Source of the DNA: Rhizobiales bacterium GAS188
Lineage (GTDB): Bacteria; Pseudomonadota; Alphaproteobacteria; Rhizobiales; Beijerinckiaceae
Direction: 5' to 3'
DNA: 64,000 bases
Assembly (NCBI GenBank): GCA_900104855.1
Contig: FNSS01000001.1
Coordinates: forward strand, 3,720,001-3,784,000
How positions within the stretch are numbered: the stretch's first letter is position 1; the number at the start of each line of letters is the position of its first letter. Shown here piece by piece: positions 40,715 to 49,059 of the stretch. A model generated the notes under the pieces. It ran no database searches and was not told where the DNA came from. It was given only the letters and a program-made list of their open reading frames with translations. The position numbers were made by a program, and so were the translations under genes.

Positions 40715-40731
40715 GGGTCCAAACGCCTCTT

Positions 40732-40891
40732 CCTTCTCCCGCTTGCGGGAGAAGGTGCCGAGGCGAAGCCGAGGCGGATGAGGGGCCGTCGTGCGCTTCA
40801 CCACCGTCCCTCATCCGCCCTCACTGCGCAGAGTCTTTCTGTTCACGACTCGCTTCCTTCTCCCGCGAAAGAGCGGGAGAAGGAAGCGAGT
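40732..40891. repeat. REP-like cluster of three hairpins
   Basis: Three stems are visible: CCTTCTCCCG/CGGGAGAAGG at 40732-40755 (10 bp, 4-base loop); GGCGGATGAGG at 40773-40783 with its complement at 40809-40819; and a 19-bp perfect stem, 40848-40866 with 40873-40891, around a 6-base loop. The first and third stems share TTCTCCCGC. The block lies just past the stop of the orphan binding protein and probably ends its transcript. The wording is typical of dispersed palindromic repeats in Hyphomicrobiales. Confidence 0.85.
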
Positions 40892-40916
40892 CATCATTGC
40901 GCGTCGCCGCAGCTTA

Positions 40917-40932
40917 TTTTAAGCTTGAAATA
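40917..40932 (+). promoter_or_regulatory. TTTTAAGCTTGAAATA motif upstream of the monooxygenase operon
   Basis: TTTTAAGCTTGAAATA, centred on AAGCTT, reads as a near-perfect palindrome (TTTYAAGCTTRAAA). It is 131 bases before the ATG at 41064 and 24 bases before the short ORF at 40957. The identical 16 bases occur, in the same orientation relative to the gene, upstream of the oligopeptide-type importer (48963-48978). A shared operator is the simplest explanation. Confidence 0.6.
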
Positions 40933-40956
40933 CTTCGCCGTGCATCAGGAGGCCTC

Positions 40957-41049
40957 ATGACGGACGCGATCCCCTGCCGGATGACCGTCGCCGGGACCAA
41001 GATCCGCGCGACTCGTCCGGGTTCCGCCACAGCCCCCTTCGCGTCTTGA
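40957..41049 (+). CDS. Short ORF with strong ribosome site before the monooxygenase gene
   Basis: A 30-codon frame (MTDAIPCRMTVAGTKI...). AGGAGG at 40947-40952 is four bases from the ATG, the best ribosome site in this part of the window. Its TGA overlaps a TTG (41046) that is in frame with the monooxygenase and lies 14 bases before the ATG at 41064. It could be a leader peptide that couples translation, or simply a remnant of an older start. Nothing in the peptide is recognisable. Confidence 0.35.
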   Translation: MTDAIPCRMTVAGTKIRATRPGSATAPFAS

Positions 41050-41063
41050 GCATCGAGCCTCTC

Positions 41064-42149
41064 ATGCACCCGATGCACGGACCCAATGCCTTCAAGCTCG
41101 GCGTCTTCTCCATCAATGCCGATGGCGGGCTCGCCCTCACCCGCGTTCCCGAACGCTGGCCGGCCGAGTGGCCGGATATCGTCGCGGTGGCGCAGATGGC
41201 GGACGCGGCGGGCTTCGAGTTCATCTTGCCGATCGCCCGCTGGAAGGGTTTCGGCGGCGAGATCAACAGCCGCGAATGGTCATACGAGACCTTGACCTTC
41301 GCGGCGGGCCTTGCCGGCGTCACGCGCGACATCGCCCTGTTCTCGACCGTGCATGTGCCGATGGCGCATCCGGTCTTCGTCGCCAAGGCGCTGACCACCG
41401 TCGACCATGCCTCGAACGGGCGCGCCGGGCTCAATATCGTCTGCGGCTGGAACCCCGAAGAATTCGCGATGTTCGGTCTCGAGATGATCGACAACCGCTA
41501 TGCGCAGGGACTCGAATGGTTCGAGGTCATGTCGCGCATCTACACCGCCGACAAGCCGTTCGATTTCGACGGCGCCTTCTACAAGCTCAAGAATGTCTCA
41601 GGGAGACCGCGGCCCCTGCAGCAGCCGCGCCCCGTCACCTTGAATGCCGCCTTCTCGCCGCCCGGGCGCGATTTCGCCGCCAAGGCTGCCGATTTCCTGT
41701 TCACCACCTTCACCGAGATCGATAAGGGCCGCGAGCATATCGAGGACATGCAGGCGCGCGCCGCGGCGGCCGGCCGCAAGGTCGGTGTCTTCACCACCTG
41801 CCATGTGGTGTGCCGGCCGAGCCAGAGCGAAGCCGAGGATTATTATCACCACTACGCCGTCACCATGGCGGATGATGCGAGCGTCGATCACTATATGGGC
41901 CAGAAGGAGAAATTCTCGGGCTCGCACGAGGCCGATGCCTATCGGCTGCATCGCAAGCGCTTCGCCGCGGGCGCCGGCACCTATCCGCTGATCGGCACGC
42001 CGCGCCACATCGCCGAGGAGATGGTGCGCATGCATCAGGCGGGCTTCGCCGGCACGACGGTGTCCTTCGTGAACTTCAAGACCGAGCTTCCCTATTTCAT
42101 CGCCGAGGTGCTGCCCCTGCTGCGTGAGGCAGGGCTGCGGGTGAAGTGA
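41064..42149 (+). CDS. LLM-class flavin-dependent monooxygenase (RutA-like)
   Basis: A 361-residue TIM-barrel oxygenase of the bacterial luciferase-like family. KLGVFSINADGG, the IARWKGFGGEINSREWSYETLTFAAGLAGVT block and NGRAGLNIVCGWNPEEFAMFG align well by eye with RutA, which opens the uracil ring with reduced flavin and oxygen. The start is ATG 41064; TTG 41046 would add six residues and overlaps the stop of the short ORF. It needs reduced FMN from a reductase, which is the next gene. The substrate is unknown; ring-opening or oxidation of a nitrogen-containing compound is a fair inference. Confidence 0.85.
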   Translation: MHPMHGPNAFKLGVFSINADGGLALTRVPERWPAEWPDIVAVAQMADAAGFEFILPIARWKGFGGEINSREWSYETLTFAAGLAGVTRDIALFSTVHVPMAHPVFVAKALTTVDHASNGRAGLNIVCGWNPEEFAMFGLEMIDNRYAQGLEWFEVMSRIYTADKPFDFDGAFYKLKNVSGRPRPLQQPRPVTLNAAFSPPGRDFAAKAADFLFTTFTEIDKGREHIEDMQARAAAAGRKVGVFTTCHVVCRPSQSEAEDYYHHYAVTMADDASVDHYMGQKEKFSGSHEADAYRLHRKRFAAGAGTYPLIGTPRHIAEEMVRMHQAGFAGTTVSFVNFKTELPYFIAEVLPLLREAGLRVK

Positions 42150-42173
42150 CAGCGATCGACTGAGGACCGCCGC

Positions 42174-42207
42174 CAGATCTTGGACCGGAACAGATCTTGG
42201 CCCAGAA
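42174..42207. repeat. 17-bp imperfect tandem repeat before the flavin reductase gene
   Basis: CAGATCTTGGACCGGAA (42174-42190) is followed directly by CAGATCTTGGCCCAGAA (42191-42207), with two differences. It fills part of the 112-base gap between the monooxygenase and the reductase genes. It is one of the series of 14-17 bp repeats in this window. Confidence 0.75.
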
Positions 42208-42261
42208 AGGACGACACATCGTGCCTTGCCGAACGACGCACCAGCCCTGACGTCCTAGACG

Positions 42262-43224
42262 ATGCAGCACGTCGACGCCGCGCATCTTACGGACGAGGGT
42301 GACCCCTCCGACAATCAGCGCGCCTTTCGCCGGGCGCTCGGCCAATTCGCAACCGGCGTCACCATCATGACGGCATGCGTCGGCGACCGGCTCGCGGGCG
42401 TCACCGCCAACTCCTTCACCTCCGTCTCGCTCGATCCGCCTCTGGTGCTGTGGTCGCTCGAATCGAAGGCGCAGAGCCTGCCCGTCTTCCGCGAGGCGAG
42501 CCATTTCGCCGTCAATGTGCTGGCGGCCGATCAAGTCGGCTTGTCGACCCGCTTCGCCCGCTCGCTCCCCGACAAATTCTCCTCCGTCGACTGGGTCGCG
42601 GGCCGCTCGGGCGCGCCCCTGATCGCCGGGGTCGCGGCGCAGTTCGAATGCGCGCGCGCCGCCGAGCATGAGGGCGGCGACCATCTCATCTTGATCGGCA
42701 AGGTCGAGCGCTTCGCCCGCTTCGAGCGCGAGGTGCTGCTTTTCGCGCATGGGCGCTACGGCCTTGCCGTCGATCATCCGGTGGCCGATGTGGGGCGGCG
42801 CACCCTGGTCGAGACCGGAGACCCGCATCCGCTCGACGACTTCCTGCTCCCGCAGCTGTTTCGCGCCTATGAGCATCTCTCGGCCGCCTTCGAGCAGCAT
42901 CGGGAGGCCGAGGGGCTGACCATCAATCAAAGCCGCATCCTCGCTTGCCTCGCGGCCAATCCGGGCTCCTCGATCGAGGCTCTGTCGCGCCTGTCCTATG
43001 TCGGCCTCGCGACCACCGAGGACGCGGTCTCTGTGCTGCTCGCCGCCGGCTTCGCCGCCATGCGGCCGCCCGCCGCCATCGCCATCACGAGCTTGGGCCG
43101 CAGCCGCCTCGCCGGCATCGTGGCGCGGGCCCGCAGCTTCGAGGCCGAGAGGCTCGCCCGCATTCCGGCGGCCGATCTGGCGGCGCTGCGCCGTGCGCTT
43201 GCGGCCCTCGGCAAGGATGGCTGA
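42262..43224 (+). CDS. Flavin reductase with C-terminal MarR-like domain
   Basis: A 320-residue protein. Residues 18-175 form a flavin reductase domain (FRRALGQFATGVTIMTA, GVTANSFTSVSLDPPLVLWSL, FAHGRYG). Residues 190-315 look like a MarR winged helix (LTINQSRILACLAANPGSSIEALSRLS, a DAVSVLLAAGFA segment, ITSLGRSRL). The same architecture and length occur in the reductase C1 of p-hydroxyphenylacetate hydroxylase from Acinetobacter baumannii, where the MarR-like part binds the aromatic substrate and stimulates flavin reduction. Here it probably feeds FMNH2 to the RutA-like monooxygenase upstream. Confidence 0.85.
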   Translation: MQHVDAAHLTDEGDPSDNQRAFRRALGQFATGVTIMTACVGDRLAGVTANSFTSVSLDPPLVLWSLESKAQSLPVFREASHFAVNVLAADQVGLSTRFARSLPDKFSSVDWVAGRSGAPLIAGVAAQFECARAAEHEGGDHLILIGKVERFARFEREVLLFAHGRYGLAVDHPVADVGRRTLVETGDPHPLDDFLLPQLFRAYEHLSAAFEQHREAEGLTINQSRILACLAANPGSSIEALSRLSYVGLATTEDAVSVLLAAGFAAMRPPAAIAITSLGRSRLAGIVARARSFEAERLARIPAADLAALRRALAALGKDG

Positions 43225-43250
43225 GCGGCGAGCGCGGCACGGAGAGGTTT

Positions 43251-43601
43251 ATGGCGGTGAAGCGGATCGTGGCGAATATCGCCACTCGGGATGTCGAACG
43301 AGCCAAGGCCTTCTACGTCGACGTTCTCGGACTGCAGGTGGTCATGGATCATGGCTGGATCTTGACGCTTGCCGGCGGAGGCAGCGCGGCGCCGCAGATC
43401 AGCTTCGCGACCGAGGGTGGATCAGGCACGCCGGTCCCCGATTTGTCGATCGAGGTCGACAATCTCGATGAGGTCCACCGACGCTCGGTGAAAGCGGGGG
43501 CATCCATCGAATACGGTCCGGCGATCGAGCCATGGGGTGTGAGGCGTTTCTACGTCCGCGACCCCTTCGGCCGCCTCCTCAACATCCTCAGCCATGATTA
43601 G
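43251..43601 (+). CDS. VOC-superfamily (glyoxalase-like) protein
   Basis: A 116-residue single-module VOC protein with GGAGAGG before the ATG. VKRIVANIATRDVERAKAFYVDVLGLQVVMDHGWILTL and RRFYVRDPFGRLLNILSHD are the typical first and last strands; the terminal E/H metal ligands are not all obvious (NILSHD in place of N-x-x-E). It may be a lyase, dioxygenase-like or ligand-binding protein. It is the last gene of the monooxygenase operon and ends three bases from the convergent ABC ATPase gene. Confidence 0.78.
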   Translation: MAVKRIVANIATRDVERAKAFYVDVLGLQVVMDHGWILTLAGGGSAAPQISFATEGGSGTPVPDLSIEVDNLDEVHRRSVKAGASIEYGPAIEPWGVRRFYVRDPFGRLLNILSHD

Positions 43602-43604
43602 CCA

Positions 43605-45467
43605 CTAAGGGGCCAGAAGCTCCGCCGCCGGCGCCTGCAGCGGCGCCCAGACCGTCGAGGGATCGTCGGGCGGGACTGCGGCGAGGAGGGTTCGCGTATA
43701 GGGATGGCGCGGCGAGGCGAAGATGTCGGCGGTGCGCCCGCTCTCGACGATCTCGCCACGCCACATCACCAGCACCCGGTCGCAGAGATTTCGTACCACT
43801 GCGAGATCATGTGAGATGAACAGCATCGAGAAGGAGAGCTCGCGCCGCAGGCGCCGCAACAGCGCGATCAGCTGCGCCTGCACGGACACGTCGAGACCGG
43901 AGGCGATCTCGTCGGCGAGCAGCAGCTTGGGCGTGGCGCACAAAGCGCGCGCAATGTTCACCCGTTGCTTCTGGCCGCCCGAGAGCTGCGACGGATAGCG
44001 GCCGCCGAGCTCCCCCGACAGGCCGACCTCGGCGAGCAGTTGCGCGGCCCGCGCCAGTCTCTCGCGTGTCGCGAGCCTCGGTGCCGCCGCCTCCAGCACC
44101 TGCGTCACGATGCTGGCGACGCGCCGGCGCGGATTGAGCGCCGATTGTGGATCCTGGAACACCATCTGCACGGTGTCGATACGCCGTCGGCGCGCCTCGC
44201 TGTTCGGGTTCGCGACGTCGAGGCCGCCGAGCTCGATGCGGCCGGACGTGGCGCGTTCGAGGCCGACGACGAGCTTGGCGATCGTCGACTTGCCGCTGCC
44301 GCTCTCCCCGACGATGCCGACGAATTCATCCTCTGCGACCTCGAAGCTCACGGCGTTGACGGCGGTGATCTCGCTCTTGCCGAACAGCCCGCGCCTTGTG
44401 CGGTAGCGCTTGGTGAGGCCGGCGACCGCGAGCAGCGGGGTGTTGCGGCCGGGTTTCTCGGTCGCTTGCGCCTCCGTCGACGCCGCGATGCCGGAAGTCA
44501 TCTCGACCCGGAAACAGGCGGCTTCGCGCCCTGGCGAGACGGTCGCGAGGTGAGGCTCGCTCTGCCGGCAGATCTCGCCGGCATTCGGGCAGCGCGGCGC
44601 GAAGCGGCAGCCTTGGAGCGCGTTCAGGCGGGCGATTCCCGGCATCTCGCCCGCAAGCGCGTAGAGCTGGCGCTCGGGCGTCGAGAGCGACGGAATCGCG
44701 AGCTGCAGGCAGCGCGCATAAGGATGCAGCGGCGCGGCCAAAAGGCTGCGCGCCGGGCCTTTCTCAACCGGGCGACCCGCATAGAGTACCAGCACGTCGT
44801 CGCAGATCTGCGCCGCGAGCCGCAGATCATGGGTGATGAACACGACCGCTGCGCCATAGGCGTCGCGCATCTCCGCCATCAGGGCGACGATGCGCGCCTG
44901 AATGGTGACGTCGAGCGCCGTCGTCGGCTCATCGGCGATCACGAGCCTCGGGCGGCTGGCGAAGGCCATGGCGATCAGCACGCGCTGGCACATGCCGCCC
45001 GAAAGCTGGTGCGGATATTGGTTCACGAGCTCGGCGGCGCGCGGCAGATGCACGGCTTCGAGCATGGCGCGTGTCTGCTCGCGCCGCTCGGCCAGCGTGG
45101 CGACGCCGATGCGGGCGAGGTGCTCGCCGAATTGCGCGCCGACGGTCAGGACCGGGTTCAGGGCGCTCAGCGGCTCCTGCGGGATGAAGGCGATCTCGCG
45201 TCCGAGCAGATGCCGGCGCCGGCCGCCCTCCATGGCGATCAGGTCTTCGCCCGCGAAGCTGAGGCTTCCGGAGGTGACGGAGAAGCCCGCCGGGAGCAAT
45301 TGCGCGATGGTGCGCCCGATCATCGACTTGCCGGCGCCTGATTCGCCGACGAGCCCGAGCACCTTGCCGGGCTCGAGCGTGAAGGCGATATCGGAGAGCA
45401 CCGGCAGGCGCTGCCCGTCGCGCAGCTGCGTCTCGACCGTCAATCCCTGTGCGGCGAGCAGGCTCAC
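43605..45467 (-). CDS. Oligopeptide-type ABC ATPase with fused DppD- and DppF-like domains
   Basis: A 620-residue protein with two complete ABC domains, as in YejF or GsiA. The first has Walker A GESGAGKSM and signature LSGGMCQRV; the second has GESGSGKST and LSGGQKQRV. An oligo_HPY segment with the CRFAPRCPNAGEIC Cys cluster lies between them. It powers the DppB/DppC-like permeases two bases upstream. Known substrates of the family include peptides, nickel, opines and glutathione. Confidence 0.9.
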   Translation of the reverse strand: MSLLAAQGLTVETQLRDGQRLPVLSDIAFTLEPGKVLGLVGESGAGKSMIGRTIAQLLPAGFSVTSGSLSFAGEDLIAMEGGRRRHLLGREIAFIPQEPLSALNPVLTVGAQFGEHLARIGVATLAERREQTRAMLEAVHLPRAAELVNQYPHQLSGGMCQRVLIAMAFASRPRLVIADEPTTALDVTIQARIVALMAEMRDAYGAAVVFITHDLRLAAQICDDVLVLYAGRPVEKGPARSLLAAPLHPYARCLQLAIPSLSTPERQLYALAGEMPGIARLNALQGCRFAPRCPNAGEICRQSEPHLATVSPGREAACFRVEMTSGIAASTEAQATEKPGRNTPLLAVAGLTKRYRTRRGLFGKSEITAVNAVSFEVAEDEFVGIVGESGSGKSTIAKLVVGLERATSGRIELGGLDVANPNSEARRRRIDTVQMVFQDPQSALNPRRRVASIVTQVLEAAAPRLATRERLARAAQLLAEVGLSGELGGRYPSQLSGGQKQRVNIARALCATPKLLLADEIASGLDVSVQAQLIALLRRLRRELSFSMLFISHDLAVVRNLCDRVLVMWRGEIVESGRTADIFASPRHPYTRTLLAAVPPDDPSTVWAPLQAPAAELLAP

Positions 45468-45469
45468 CC

Positions 45470-46327
45470 TCAGACCTCGCGCGCCTGCATCAGGCGTGGA
45501 TCGAGGGTGCGCCGCAAGCCGTCGCCGAGAAGATTGAAGCCGAGCACGGTGATGAAGATCGCGAGCATCGGCAAGACGAGGTTCCAGGCCGATTCATAGA
45601 TCGACTGGCGCGCATCGGCGATCATCTGGCCCCAGGCCGACTGGTTGGCGCCGACGCTCATGCCGACGAAGGACAGGACCGCCTCGACGATCACGGCGAT
45701 CCCCATCTCGATGCTGACGAGCGTTATCAGCAAGGGCAGGGTGGCGGGCAGGATCTCGCGGGTCAAGGTGCGCCAATGGCTGAAGCCAACGAGCCGCGCC
45801 GCCGCCACATAGTCCTGCCGCGTCGTGACCAGCACCTCGGCCCGCAGCACCCGGCAGAAGCGCGTCCAGTCGACGAGCACGATGGCGAGGATGACACTGC
45901 GCACCCCAGCGCCGAGCCCGGTCATCAGCACGAGCGACAGCACCACGGGCGGGAACGACATCCACACATCGACAGCGCGGCCGATTAGCCAATCGACCTT
46001 GCCGCCGAAATAGCCGCCGAGATGGGCGAGGGTTGCCCCCATCAGCATCGCGCCGAGGGAAGCGAGCACCGCGACCGTCATGGCGACGCGGGCCCCGTAG
46101 AGGAGCCGCGAGAGCACGTCGCGCCCGAGCGAATCGGTGCCGAGCAGATAGGTCGCATCGCCCGCCGCCGACCAGGACGGCGGCACCAGGGTGGCGATCA
46201 GGTTCTGCTCCTCTGGATCGTGCGGCGCGAGGAAGGGCGCGAACAGCGCGCAGGCGATGACGACCGCGACGATCGTCAAGCCGACGACCACCCGCAAGGA
46301 GCGCAGCGCCGCGAAACCCTTGCGCAT
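45470..46327 (-). CDS. Oligopeptide-type ABC permease (DppC-like)
   Basis: A 285-residue membrane protein. LLGTDSLGRDVLSRLLYGARVAM near residue 65 and the EAA loop VAAARLVGFSHWRTLTREILPAT near 180 are typical of DppC. Its ATG overlaps the DppB stop by one base (TGATG). It pairs with DppB-like to form the channel. A short N-terminal cytoplasmic part is normal for DppC. Confidence 0.9.
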   Translation of the reverse strand: MRKGFAALRSLRVVVGLTIVAVVIACALFAPFLAPHDPEEQNLIATLVPPSWSAAGDATYLLGTDSLGRDVLSRLLYGARVAMTVAVLASLGAMLMGATLAHLGGYFGGKVDWLIGRAVDVWMSFPPVVLSLVLMTGLGAGVRSVILAIVLVDWTRFCRVLRAEVLVTTRQDYVAAARLVGFSHWRTLTREILPATLPLLITLVSIEMGIAVIVEAVLSFVGMSVGANQSAWGQMIADARQSIYESAWNLVLPMLAIFITVLGFNLLGDGLRRTLDPRLMQAREV

Positions 46328-47343
46328 CAGGCCGTCCTCAGCCGCGGGTTGAGCACGAGATAGAGCCCGTCGATGATCATGTTGATGATCAGCACCACGA
46401 CCGCATAGGCGAGCGCCACCGCCTGGATGATCGGCAGATCGGCGTTGCGCACCGCATCGACCATGAGGTTACCGAGGCCGGGATAGGAATAGATCACCTC
46501 GATCAGCAAGGTGCCGCCGAACAGGAAGCCGAACTGCACACCCATCAAAGTCAAGGTCGGCAGAACGGCGTTCTTCAGCGTGTGGCGCAGCAGGATGCGC
46601 CCCTCGGATACGCCGCGCAGCCTCGCCTGCCGGATATAGTCGGCGTGGTCGACCTCATAGAGGCTCGAGCGCAGCACCCGCATGATCGGGACCGAGAAGG
46701 CAAGGCCAAGCGCCGTCGCTGGCAGGATCATGTGCTTGAGCGCATCCATGAACATGTCGAGCCGGCCCTCGATCAGCGTGTCGAGCAGCAGGAAGCCCGA
46801 ATGCATGGGGCGCGGGAAGCTCGCCGCGAGCCGCCCGGTGAAGGGCAGGATCGGCCAGGCGACCCCGAAGGCCAGGATGAATATCAAGCCGAACAGGAAA
46901 TCCGGCGTCGACATCAGCACGGTCGAGCCGAGATCGGCGGCCTCGCCGCGCCAGCTGCCGCGCAGATGGAAGAGCATCAGCCCGCCCACGAAGCCGAGCC
47001 CGGCGGCGATTGCCATGGCGAGGGCTGCGAGCTCGATGGTCGCCGGCAGGCTCTCGCCGATGAGCCCGGCAACGCCGCGCCGGAAATGGATCGAGGTGCC
47101 GAGATCGCCGCGCAACGTCTGGCCGAGCCAGATCGCATATTGCTGCGGCAAGGGGCGATCGAGGCCCATCTCCTTGCGCTTCACCTCGATCTCGTCCTTC
47201 GTGGCGTTGGGCGGCATGGACATCGCGGCCGGATCGACCGGCAGGACGCGCAGCACCGCGAAGACCAGGGCCGAGACCACGAGCAGGATGGGGATCGCAG
47301 CGGCAAGCCTTTTGGCGAACAGCGCCAGGACCGGCGCGATCAT
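46327..47343 (-). CDS. Oligopeptide-type ABC permease (DppB-like)
   Basis: A 338-residue membrane protein with the DppB N-terminus (LAAAIPILLVVSALVFAVLRVLPVDPAAM) and the EAA loop YIRQARLRGVSEGRILLRHTLKNAVLP near residue 245. It starts at ATG 47343, 39 bases after the substrate-binding protein stop. It is the second gene of a four-gene importer operon. Confidence 0.9.
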   Translation of the reverse strand: MIAPVLALFAKRLAAAIPILLVVSALVFAVLRVLPVDPAAMSMPPNATKDEIEVKRKEMGLDRPLPQQYAIWLGQTLRGDLGTSIHFRRGVAGLIGESLPATIELAALAMAIAAGLGFVGGLMLFHLRGSWRGEAADLGSTVLMSTPDFLFGLIFILAFGVAWPILPFTGRLAASFPRPMHSGFLLLDTLIEGRLDMFMDALKHMILPATALGLAFSVPIMRVLRSSLYEVDHADYIRQARLRGVSEGRILLRHTLKNAVLPTLTLMGVQFGFLFGGTLLIEVIYSYPGLGNLMVDAVRNADLPIIQAVALAYAVVVLIINMIIDGLYLVLNPRLRTA

Positions 47344-47382
47344 GTCGGGCGCGCCCGGCGCAAGCGAAATCCAAACAGGCCG

Positions 47383-48918
47383 TCAGCTCCAGCTCATGCT
47401 GTCGGCGCGCACCCAGCCATTGCCGTATTGGGTGTAAGAGAGGTTCTTCTTGCGCACCAGCGTCTGCACGCTCTGCAGCAACGGGATCGAGGCGCCGCTT
47501 TCGACCGAGTCCTTGTTCAACGCCTTGTAGCCGGCGATGCGCTCGTCGTAATTTGCGACATTGAACAGGTCGAGCGCCCTCTGGCCGACCTCCATGCCCT
47601 TCCAGGCCGAGAACGGCATCTTCGGATTGAGCAGATAACCGGAAAAGATCTCCGGGTCGCCCGTCGCGTTGTCCCAGCTGTAGAGGGTCGCTTCCGGCAG
47701 CTTGGCGCCGCGGTTCAGCTCGAAATATTTGGCGTATTCGATCACTTCGAGCTCGGCCTCGATGCCGACCTTCTTCCACATCTGCGCGATGGCGCGCGCG
47801 ATATCGTAGTCGGAGGGGAAATTGCCGTTGGTCGAGGCGAAGCTGAACTTGGCCGGCTTGTCGGCCGAATAGCCCGATTTGGCCAGGAGCTGCTTGGCGA
47901 GCTCGGGATCGTAGGCGAAATTGTAGTCCGGCAGATAGGCGGCGGTGCCCGGCGTCGCCATGACCGAGAGCGGCACCGCGGCTCCGCCATAGAAAGCCTG
48001 CGACAGCGCCTTCTTGTCGATCGCATGATGGGCGGCGAGCCGCACATTCGGATCGGCAAAACCGAGATCGTTGCGCACCTGCAGCAGGATCACGCGGGTG
48101 ATGGGATTGAGCTCGCCCGCAAGGTGCGGCTCGTTCTTCAGGCGCTGCACCTCGCGCACCGGCACCGAGACGGTGAGATCGACCTGCCCCGACTGGACGG
48201 CGGCGACACGCGCCGAAGGGTCCTTGATGATCTCGAAGGTGACGCGCCGCAGCTTGGGCTTCGGCCCCCAATAGGTTTCGTTGCGCTCGAGCACGATGCG
48301 CGAATTCAGTGCGTATTCGGCGATCCTGTAGGGGCCGGAGCCGACCGGCTTATCGCGGAAGGCATCGACGCCGACCTTCTCCATATAGTCCTTGGGCACC
48401 ACGAAGCTGCCGAGGAAGGAAAGCCATTGCGGTGCGGTTGGCGCCGGCGAATCGAAGCGCATCACGGCCTTGGTGGCTGAGACGATCTCGATATCGGTGA
48501 CCTTGCGCCAGGAATTGGCGATGTCGACCTTGTGGCCGGCCTTGATCCGCTCGAAGAAGGTGTAGCGGAAATCCGCCGTCGTCATCTTGTCGCCATTGTG
48601 GAAGGCGACGTCGTCGCGCAGCTCGACCGGCATGCTTTTGGCGTCGGCGGCGAGCTCCCAGGATTTCACGACATTGGGGATCAGCTTGAGCTTCGGATCC
48701 TGATCGAGCGGCTGGTCGAACACCATCTTGAAGATCGACTGGGCATCCGGCACGAAACGCTGATTGGGATCCCAGCTCGGCACGTCCTGCGGCCAGCCGA
48801 TGGTGACGCTGTCGGTCTCGGCGGCCAGCGCTTGCAGGACGCCGCCCAATGGGCGAAGGCCCGCGACGCCGAGTGCGGTCGCGCCAAGCACGGACCTGCG
48901 AGTGAATGCGGATGTCAT
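47383..48918 (-). CDS. Oligopeptide-type ABC substrate-binding protein (SBP_bac_5)
   Basis: A 511-residue periplasmic protein. The N-terminus has a twin-arginine-like signal (TRRSVLGATALGVAGL, cut near ALAAE). Typical family segments are SWDPNQRF, LRDDVAFHNGDKMTTADFRYTF and the PVGSGPYRIAEY turn. The ligand is unknown; relatives bind peptides, opines or other nitrogen compounds. It leads the importer operon, with the TTTTAAGCTTGAAATA motif 44 bases before its start. Confidence 0.9.
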   Translation of the reverse strand: MTSAFTRRSVLGATALGVAGLRPLGGVLQALAAETDSVTIGWPQDVPSWDPNQRFVPDAQSIFKMVFDQPLDQDPKLKLIPNVVKSWELAADAKSMPVELRDDVAFHNGDKMTTADFRYTFFERIKAGHKVDIANSWRKVTDIEIVSATKAVMRFDSPAPTAPQWLSFLGSFVVPKDYMEKVGVDAFRDKPVGSGPYRIAEYALNSRIVLERNETYWGPKPKLRRVTFEIIKDPSARVAAVQSGQVDLTVSVPVREVQRLKNEPHLAGELNPITRVILLQVRNDLGFADPNVRLAAHHAIDKKALSQAFYGGAAVPLSVMATPGTAAYLPDYNFAYDPELAKQLLAKSGYSADKPAKFSFASTNGNFPSDYDIARAIAQMWKKVGIEAELEVIEYAKYFELNRGAKLPEATLYSWDNATGDPEIFSGYLLNPKMPFSAWKGMEVGQRALDLFNVANYDERIAGYKALNKDSVESGASIPLLQSVQTLVRKKNLSYTQYGNGWVRADSMSWS

Positions 48919-48962
48919 GGCGAAACCTCGTCGAAGGTGACTAGATCACTTGGGGACGAAAT

Positions 48963-48978
48963 TATTTCAAGCTTAAAA
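48963..48978 (-). promoter_or_regulatory. TTTTAAGCTTGAAATA motif upstream of the oligopeptide-type importer
   Basis: On the minus strand, reading towards the binding-protein gene, the sequence is identical over 16 bases to the motif at 40917-40932. It sits 44-60 bases before the ATG at 48918, a normal place for an operator overlapping a promoter. Around it (48959-48990) the DNA is unusually AT-rich for this genome. Confidence 0.6.
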
Positions 48979-49059
48979 CGATTATTTCTGCGGCGCAACA
49001 GGATTGCGATTGGCAGTTTGCGAACCTGGCCTGAGGCTCGGTCCGCGGTGTGAACCGTC

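Follow-up and report, generated by a model that had tools for sequence, protein, structure and literature searches.

A repeated 16-base motif upstream of an oxygenase operon and an importer as a very probable MarR-type operator of tryptophan/anthranilate breakdown genes

Why should the same 16 bases precede both a luciferase-like monooxygenase operon and an Opp-type importer, and which protein would read them? We addressed these questions in a 64-kb stretch of DNA (the window), in its own genome (G000, 9,090,457 bases) and in 298 genomes of the family. We conclude that the motif is very probably bound by a MarR-type repressor, predicted from sequence to act also on promoters of tryptophan/anthranilate breakdown genes. 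Since the motif is common to those promoters, the oxygenase operon and the importer probably belong to the same gene set. The coordinates of the features are collected in Table 1.

Table 1. Features of the window block and the candidate regulator gene (window coordinates, except for MarR_A).
Feature	Position	Strand	Remark
Probable -35, TTGCGC	40897..40902	+	17 bases 5' of TAAGCT inside operator 1; by-eye assignment
Operator 1 (predicted), TATTTTAAGCTTGAAATA	40915..40932	+	5' of monooxygenase operon; kept in 3/3 congeners
Short upstream ORF, 30 aa	40957..41049	+	AGGAGG ribosome-binding site in front
Luciferase-like FMN-dependent monooxygenase	41064..42149	+	SfnG/RutA neighbourhood, below both cut-offs
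Flavin reductase, C-terminal MarR-like domain without DNA-binding wing	42262..43224	+	between both operators
VOC/glyoxalase-fold protein	43251..43601	+	PF00903
Importer ATPase, two fused ABC domains	43605..45467	-	profile match
Importer permease, OppC/NikC type	45470..46327	-	profile match
Importer permease, OppB/NikB type	46327..47343	-	profile match
Importer solute-binding protein	47383..48918	-	SBP_bac_5
Operator 2 (predicted), CGTTTTAAGCTTGAAATA on minus strand	48963..48980	-	5' of importer
Probable -35, TTGCGC	48993..48998	-	17 bases 5' of TAAGCT inside operator 2; by-eye assignment
MarR_A, MarR family	G000:C1:7430760-7431347		operon with short-chain dehydrogenase (SDR), enoyl-CoA hydratase, acyl-CoA-dehydrogenase-like protein, benzoate-CoA-ligase-family enzyme

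A scan of the 64-kb window returned the exact 16-mer at 40917-40932 (+) and at 48963-48978 (-), just where a preliminary description of this DNA had placed it. With up to three mismatches there were three matches (one being the reverse-strand reading of the 40917 site) compared to 0.03 expected, and none of 100 shuffles had as many; TTTYAAGCTTRAAA with up to two mismatches occurred at two places compared to 0.09 expected. The 40917 copy is 131 bases from the monooxygenase ATG (41064; the longest ORF starts at TTG 41046). The 44 bases between the other copy and the ATG of the importer binding protein (48918), also described earlier, were found again.

We observed that in the window and in three congeners (G043, G079 and G106) the motif was the longest conserved block 5' of both units, and the TTGCRC box and the ribosome-binding site ranked next. 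Both sites were conserved within otherwise diverged promoters, with 12 or 13 of the 14 core positions of operator 2 retained in the congeners. At the -35 positions, TTGCRC (operator 1) and GTTGCRCC (operator 2) were kept in the window and all three congeners. The identity of all 16 bases could also mean a recent duplication or a functionless repeat, a reading that we regard as practically negligible: by eye, the two copies have no longer homology beyond the promoter elements, each is kept at its own position in the congeners with diverging flanks, and more copies lie 5' of further genes that share a pathway.

Where promoters were examined by eye, the motif overlaps the presumed -10, as would also be expected of a promoter element such as an alternative sigma-factor -10. 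We consider it very unlikely that the motif is such an element rather than a repressor site, given that it is an 18-bp near-palindrome and that two different spacings separate it from the TTG box, namely 17 bases to TAAGCT at the window units and 16-17 to TAAAAT at kynureninase and most genes for the anthraniloyl/salicylyl-CoA hydroxylase (ACMR). Moreover, it is restricted to a handful of pathway genes and defines no general promoter class.

Across G000 the motif core had three exact places and five at up to one mismatch, while the reversed control pattern had none. Random scatter over the genome, which had been named beforehand as an outcome speaking against the motif, was not what the scan gave. 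Two of the exact places were the window copies and the third lay 5' of ACMR. The consensus TATTTYAAGYTTRAAATA matched at seven places with up to two mismatches and at ten with up to three (two for the reversed control); targets were assigned for the seven, with the three 3-mismatch places left out. Six of the seven stood 5' of the monooxygenase, the importer, ACMR, the SDR-MarR_A operon, kynureninase and a LIV-type binding protein.

The copies before the kynureninase-tryptophan dioxygenase genes (51 bases 5' of kynureninase), the MarR-containing operon (12 bases 5' of an in-frame ATG of its first gene) and the binding-protein gene were looser ones. The pathway enzymes scored above the respective equivalog cut-offs: ACMR with 1101 bits (NF006101, cut-off 1078), kynureninase with 285.6 bits (TIGR01814, 246.4) and tryptophan 2,3-dioxygenase with 417 bits (TIGR03036, 390.7). 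The remaining site (about C1:6743242-6743244, L005/L007), with one mismatch, falls where an unrelated ORF ends, 5' of a helix-turn-helix gene, and was set aside as fitting no regulon role. Around a second oxygenase paralogue (C1:7820748, L141) no site with at least 13 of 14 matches was present within 18 kb.

Conservation of the sites was followed in the congeners and then in more distant relatives. All nine sites found at up to one mismatch in the three congeners were 5' of the monooxygenase (4), kynureninase (2), ACMR (2) or the importer (1); the reversed control matched at 3, 1 and 1 places in G043, G079 and G106, respectively. ACMR matches were found in 112 of the 298 family genomes. The 30 best-scoring of these, chosen regardless of the motif, all had a match of 14-18 out of 18 starting within 90 bp of the gene start, compared to 10-12 for the reversed pattern and a single one of 1500 single-base shuffles reaching 14. 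Nine of the 30 genomes were among the 28 family genomes that have the exact 16-mer (the motif genomes). For 20 more ACMR genes, picked by hand, the scores were 13-18 (control 10-14); in five of them the best match was far from the gene, over about 180 bp upstream.

For the oxygenase promoter, 30 loci were scored with exact flanks and shuffles. Among the 26 outside the genus, five reached 14-15 out of 18, one reached 13 and 20 had 8-12; the reversed pattern reached 13-14 at 3 of 26 loci, and 5 of 1300 shuffles reached 14. The expected conservation 5' of orthologous operons thus held within the genus and was patchy before the oxygenase beyond it. One relative, G070, had a site matching at 12 of 14 positions 5' of the importer and none 5' of the oxygenase.

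The best candidate for the protein reading the 18-bp near-palindrome is MarR_A. It matched Pfam MarR_2 with 49.4 bits (cut-off 27), it matched 3boq of the MarR family (E 1.4e-23), and its wing is intact with the D-R-R residues (NDRRAQVVRL; TDRRATVISL in a relative). A size of 16-20 bp is given for MarR operators in a review (PMC10458429). The near-palindrome is within this range and occurs both at the pathway promoters and at MarR_A's own operon, as a palindromic operator of a MarR repressor would. MarR_A was present in 28 of 28 motif genomes compared to 83 of the 270 others (Fisher 9e-14, with kinship ignored), and of the 36 sites in relatives, 27 (spread over 22 of 27 genomes) were within 15 kb of its gene.

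On the other hand, MarR_A (111 genomes) and ACMR travel together: both were present in 104 genomes, including all motif genomes, and at the cut-offs used eight genomes had ACMR without MarR_A. Therefore, the co-occurrence is stronger evidence for a link of the motif with the pathway than for one with MarR_A itself. In G000 the MarR_A gene is 3.6 Mb from the window sites, so its link to them rests on the relatives and on one looser site at its own operon. The idea of a common regulator, put forward in the preliminary description, is strongly supported for both window units by congener conservation and the rarity of the motif; the regulon appears wider than was thought, with kynurenine and anthraniloyl-CoA genes and a probable regulator outside the block.

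A different regulator may read the motif, either an unseen one or, for instance, the MarR protein encoded divergently from kynureninase (L008 3160-3669), which is the nearest regulator found to one of the sites in G000 and has orthologues in the three congeners. We find this unlikely. At E 1e-25 the kynureninase-divergent MarR had a match in 40 of the 298 family genomes, but G000 was the only one of the 28 motif genomes among them, which rules it out as the general reader; an unseen regulator would need to travel with both MarR_A and ACMR.

The statement that no separate regulator gene lies in the block was correct, but it overlooked the C-terminal domain of the flavin reductase. Since Pfam gave no match for this domain, a PDB search, alignment and fold were used, and these revealed a reductase domain followed by a MarR-like domain, the architecture of C1-type reductases. 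The score against the C1-type equivalog NF045919 was 216.2 bits, below the cut-off of 340. The C1 reductase of p-hydroxyphenylacetate 3-hydroxylase from Acinetobacter baumannii (5ZYR, 5ZC2), likewise a flavin reductase with a MarR-like domain, was the best match in structure and sequence (35-36% identity), although the partner oxygenase in the window is luciferase-like.

As the only MarR-type fold found in the block, encoded between both operators, this domain could itself be a DNA-binding repressor, and the reductase a bifunctional protein with local autoregulation. However, it has lost 6-7 residues, the wing with its arginines among them, and the same holds for 29 aligned homologues (the suitable ORFs from 35 loci inspected, of 68 found). 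Its clear orthologues (E below 1e-30) are rare: five of the 298 family genomes have one, and two of these five belong to the 28 motif genomes. With E 1e-5 as the limit, the domain was found in 20 of the 298, three of them motif genomes. Furthermore, G070 retains the reductase and yet has no motif 5' of its oxygenase. The missing wing and the rarity lead us to reject the domain as the motif reader, a role that we consider highly improbable. By analogy with the C1 reductase, the wingless domain probably senses substrate.

In the model that we consider likely overall, TATTTYAAGYTTRAAATA is the operator of the MarR-family repressor MarR_A. A MarR_A dimer would cover the core promoters of kynureninase-tryptophan dioxygenase, of 2-aminobenzoyl(salicylyl)-CoA hydroxylase/reductase and of its own operon, as well as those of the branched-chain-type binding protein and both window units. 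During breakdown of tryptophan, kynurenine or anthranilate, an aryl-CoA intermediate, most likely 2-aminobenzoyl-CoA, would bind MarR_A and lift repression. The monooxygenase, flavin reductase, VOC protein and importer would then import and oxidise a compound feeding the same pool, with the reductase adding control at the enzyme level by means of a MarR-like domain that has lost its DNA-reading function. The site, its rarity and conservation, the gene neighbourhoods and the co-occurrence were read from sequence; DNA binding by MarR_A, repression, inducer and substrate are inferred from these. Importer and oxygenase may share a single compound, as was suggested earlier.

Several known MarR systems resemble this scheme. 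CouR of Rhodococcus jostii and Rhodopseudomonas palustris responds to p-coumaroyl-CoA, and its inverted-repeat operator overlaps the -35 boxes (PMC4737184, PMC10458429); the pathway proposed for MarR_A is instead kynurenine/anthraniloyl-CoA, and the operator is also found at a luciferase-like oxygenase and at transport genes. BadR, HcaR, FerR and FerC are tabulated as catabolic MarR regulators with CoA-thioester signals (PMC10458429), and words starting with anthranilate, aminobenzoyl or kynurenine have no occurrences in that review. IadR/IacR control auxin degradation, where the iad-locus route ends in anthranilate (PMC9613470); unlike the proposed MarR_A, they are described there as binding indole-3-acetate and as encoded in auxin loci. 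Among the listed results of a literature search, mostly of papers outside subscription, there was no description of a MarR operator for an aminobenzoyl-CoA or anthranilate-type pathway. The orphan oxygenase-importer block becomes a testable part of tryptophan/anthranilate catabolism; the strongly conserved operator can be used to map the regulon across this alphaproteobacterial family, and a candidate regulator gene is named.

The oxygenase had been called RutA-like, which proved a loose label: it is closer to SfnG (173.1 bits against TIGR04021, cut-off 382.95) than to RutA (125.4 bits against TIGR03612, cut-off 498.3), and scores so far under both equivalog cut-offs rule out either identity. 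The dimethylsulfone monooxygenase SfnG (8T0U, E 2.6e-40) and the pyrimidine monooxygenase RutA (E about 1e-27) are its nearest solved relatives, whereas the regulon around it concerns aromatics and neither sulfones nor pyrimidines. More tentatively, and with the balance somewhat against it, the window may encode an undescribed route that imports an anthranilate-yielding compound and opens it oxidatively into the anthraniloyl-CoA pathway. Two MarR folds would control it at two levels, MarR_A reading DNA and a CoA thioester, and the wingless reductase domain reading substrate and gating flavin reduction. Examples of such substrates are an N-aryl amide, a lactam or another tryptophan- or quinolone-derived aromatic.

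The 30-aa ORF upstream of the monooxygenase has counterparts in the three congeners, with starts of the form (M/V)(T/K)(D/H)(A/P)I, and possibly encodes a leader peptide.

The preliminary description had reported one 16-base sequence at two places in the window, and both copies were found exactly as it had stated. Two window matches to the motif core, TTTYAAGCTTRAAA, were observed at up to 2 mismatches compared to 0.09 expected. In the complete 9.09-Mb genome the core had 3 exact places and 5 places with at most one mismatch (0 for the reversed control, the pattern read backwards), while the extended motif, TATTTYAAGYTTRAAATA, was found at 7 places with up to 2 mismatches and at 10 with up to 3 (control 2).

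Motif sites and other features in the window and in the complete genome (C1)
Feature	Position	Remark
16-base copy in proposed operator 1	window 40917-40932 (+)	precedes monooxygenase operon
16-base copy in proposed operator 2	window 48963-48978 (-)	precedes importer
Motif site	C1:6687711	precedes ACMR (anthraniloyl/salicylyl-CoA hydroxylase)
Motif site	C1:1115474	precedes kynureninase-tryptophan dioxygenase; 51 bases to kynureninase ATG
Motif site	C1:7432118	12 bases ahead of first ATG of SDR-MarR_A operon (SDR, short-chain dehydrogenase)
Motif site	C1:3659673	precedes LIV-type binding protein
Seventh place at up to 2 mismatches	C1:6743242	no fitting target
MarR_A, a MarR-type protein	C1:7430760-7431347	proposed repressor
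Second oxygenase paralogue region (L141)	C1:7812000-7830000	
30-codon ORF	window 40957-41049	between operator 1 and monooxygenase
Inverted repeats	window 40730-40890	just upstream of operator 1

The ACMR of this genome scored above the cut-off of the NCBIfam family "bifunctional salicylyl-CoA 5-hydroxylase/oxidoreductase", an enzyme type that also acts on 2-aminobenzoyl-CoA. The kynureninase and the tryptophan dioxygenase both exceeded family cut-offs. The SDR-MarR_A operon further codes for an enoyl-CoA hydratase, an acyl-CoA-dehydrogenase-like protein and a benzoate-CoA-ligase-family enzyme; its hydratase and ligase reached an NCBIfam cut-off, the SDR and the dehydrogenase were below, and the LIV-type binding protein reached no family cut-off.

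Among the 298 family genomes, TTTTAAGCTTRAAATA was found in 28 and its reversed pattern in 1. Classification covered 29 loci among the 36 sites in 27 relatives: 20 were ACMR loci (6 also flanked by an SDR gene on the opposite side), 5 had a LIV-type binding protein and four were left unassigned, one being a tryptophan-dioxygenase-like gene and the other three, as read by eye, an FAD monooxygenase, an amidohydrolase and a carboxylesterase. ACMR itself was detected in 112 of the 298 genomes. The best 30 of these matches, taken without selection on the motif, all had a match of 14-18 out of 18 positions starting within 90 bp of the gene start, compared to 10-12 for the reversed pattern; a score as high as 14 was seen in 1 of 1500 single-base shuffles. 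Of the 30 genomes, nine belong to the 28 with the exact 16-mer, and 21 lie outside. Twenty further hand-picked ACMR genes, mostly more diverged, scored 13-18 (16 of them at least 15; controls 10-14), with the best match more than ~180 bp upstream in 5.

With up to one mismatch allowed, the motif was found nine times in three congeners, G043, G079 and G106 (reversed control 3, 1 and 1, respectively), and all nine copies preceded the same genes: monooxygenase in 4 cases (among them an additional gene copy at a contig end in G079), kynureninase in 2, ACMR in 2 and importer in 1. The importers of G079 and G106 retain CTTTAAGTTTGAAA (12 of 14 core positions) and that of G043 retains 13 of 14; the SDR-MarR_A operons keep a 15-16/18 match. 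When the promoters of the window and the congeners were aligned, no conserved block ahead of either unit was longer than the motif; a TTGCRC box and the ribosome-binding site followed, the remainder having diverged.

Outside the genus, 26 oxygenase loci gave matches of 14-15/18 in 5, 13 in one and at most 12 in the other 20; on these sequences the reversed control scored 13-14 at 3 of 26 loci, and 5 of 1300 shuffles scored 14. One of the five loci belongs to G185, the other four (L117-L120 in G055, G015, G087 and G112) to species of a single genus. These four species have oxygenases with 59% identity to that of the window and share an identical TAGTTTAGACTTGAAATT, which starts 115-127 bases ahead of the oxygenase match and may derive from the same operator by drift. 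G070 has a site at the importer only (12/14). Because the oxygenase-promoter site is patchy beyond the genus, and importer-only in G070, the block probably joined the regulon within this lineage; alternatively, the site drifted elsewhere. At L105 and L111 (G167 and G206), oxygenase orthologues adjoin a related importer and lack the motif; a different palindromic element, ATTTAATATACAGTATATTG, lies upstream of them, which suggests that another regulator acts there.

The plus-strand genes of the block code for a luciferase-like monooxygenase (PF00296), a flavin reductase (PF01613) and a VOC protein, and the minus-strand genes for a four-gene Opp/Nik-type importer. The closest relatives of the oxygenase are SfnG and RutA, with scores far under both equivalog cut-offs. 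The flavin reductase has a second domain without a Pfam match. In PDB sequence searches its residues 20-264 matched the C1 reductase of p-hydroxyphenylacetate hydroxylase, and the C-terminal 139 residues alone matched a MarR protein (E 1.2e-8). The predicted model (mean pLDDT 82.6, pTM 0.54, low confidence in the interdomain linker) had 5zyr and 5zc2 as best structure matches, at a TM-score of only ~0.64. In C1, according to PMC10816480, the reductase is self-inhibited, and binding of 4-HPA by its MarR domain lifts this inhibition; by analogy, the window's enzyme probably works likewise, responding to its own substrate. The L141 region holds the oxygenase paralogue (48% identical), a third luciferase-like gene and a MarR gene, as well as a further flavin reductase.

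As to the protein reading the motif, MarR genes adjoin ACMR in relatives, and the GAS188 genome has one close orthologue of these, MarR_A (61% identical; next best 33-36%), 3.6 Mb away from the window. At E ≤1e-30 MarR_A was present in 28 of 28 motif genomes compared to 83 of 270 without the motif (Fisher p 9e-14, uncorrected for kinship), and it lay within 15 kb of 27 of the 36 sites in relatives. MarR_A and ACMR co-occur (104 genomes with both), and therefore the association evidence cannot fully separate the regulator from the pathway. Two other candidates are poor: a MarR adjoining kynureninase (1 of 28 motif genomes) and the MarR-like domain of the reductase (clear in 5 of 298 genomes), which moreover lacks the DNA-binding wing in all 30 sequences aligned. 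Near the start of the kynureninase-side MarR gene (L008, 3660-3700) we observed a symmetric-looking element, GTGCGCATATGCAC, unlike the window motif.

By eye, the two promoters in the window share the form TTGCGC-17-TAAGCT; the proposed operator covers the second box, where a bound repressor would be predicted to block RNA polymerase. The ACMR promoter of the same genome reads TTGCAC-16-TAAAAT, and in most ACMR relatives a TTG box stands 16-17 bases ahead of TAAAAT or a near variant, also by eye; in a few (e.g. L269 and L270) a clear TTG box was not seen. The proposed mechanism resembles that of CouR in that the operator position would block RNA polymerase: according to PMC4737184, the inverted repeat bound by CouR shares bases with the -35 boxes, and p-coumaroyl-CoA releases CouR. 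By this likeness, our best guess for the inducer is an aryl-CoA. The tie of the block to the pathway is regulatory rather than biochemical.

The 30-codon ORF has an AGGAGG ribosome-binding site, and short ORFs beginning (M/V)(T/K)(D/H)(A/P)I occupy the same place in the three congeners; a leader peptide or translational coupling is possible. The inverted repeats around "cttctcccgc...gcgggagaagg" are imperfect and resemble a dispersed intergenic repeat element.
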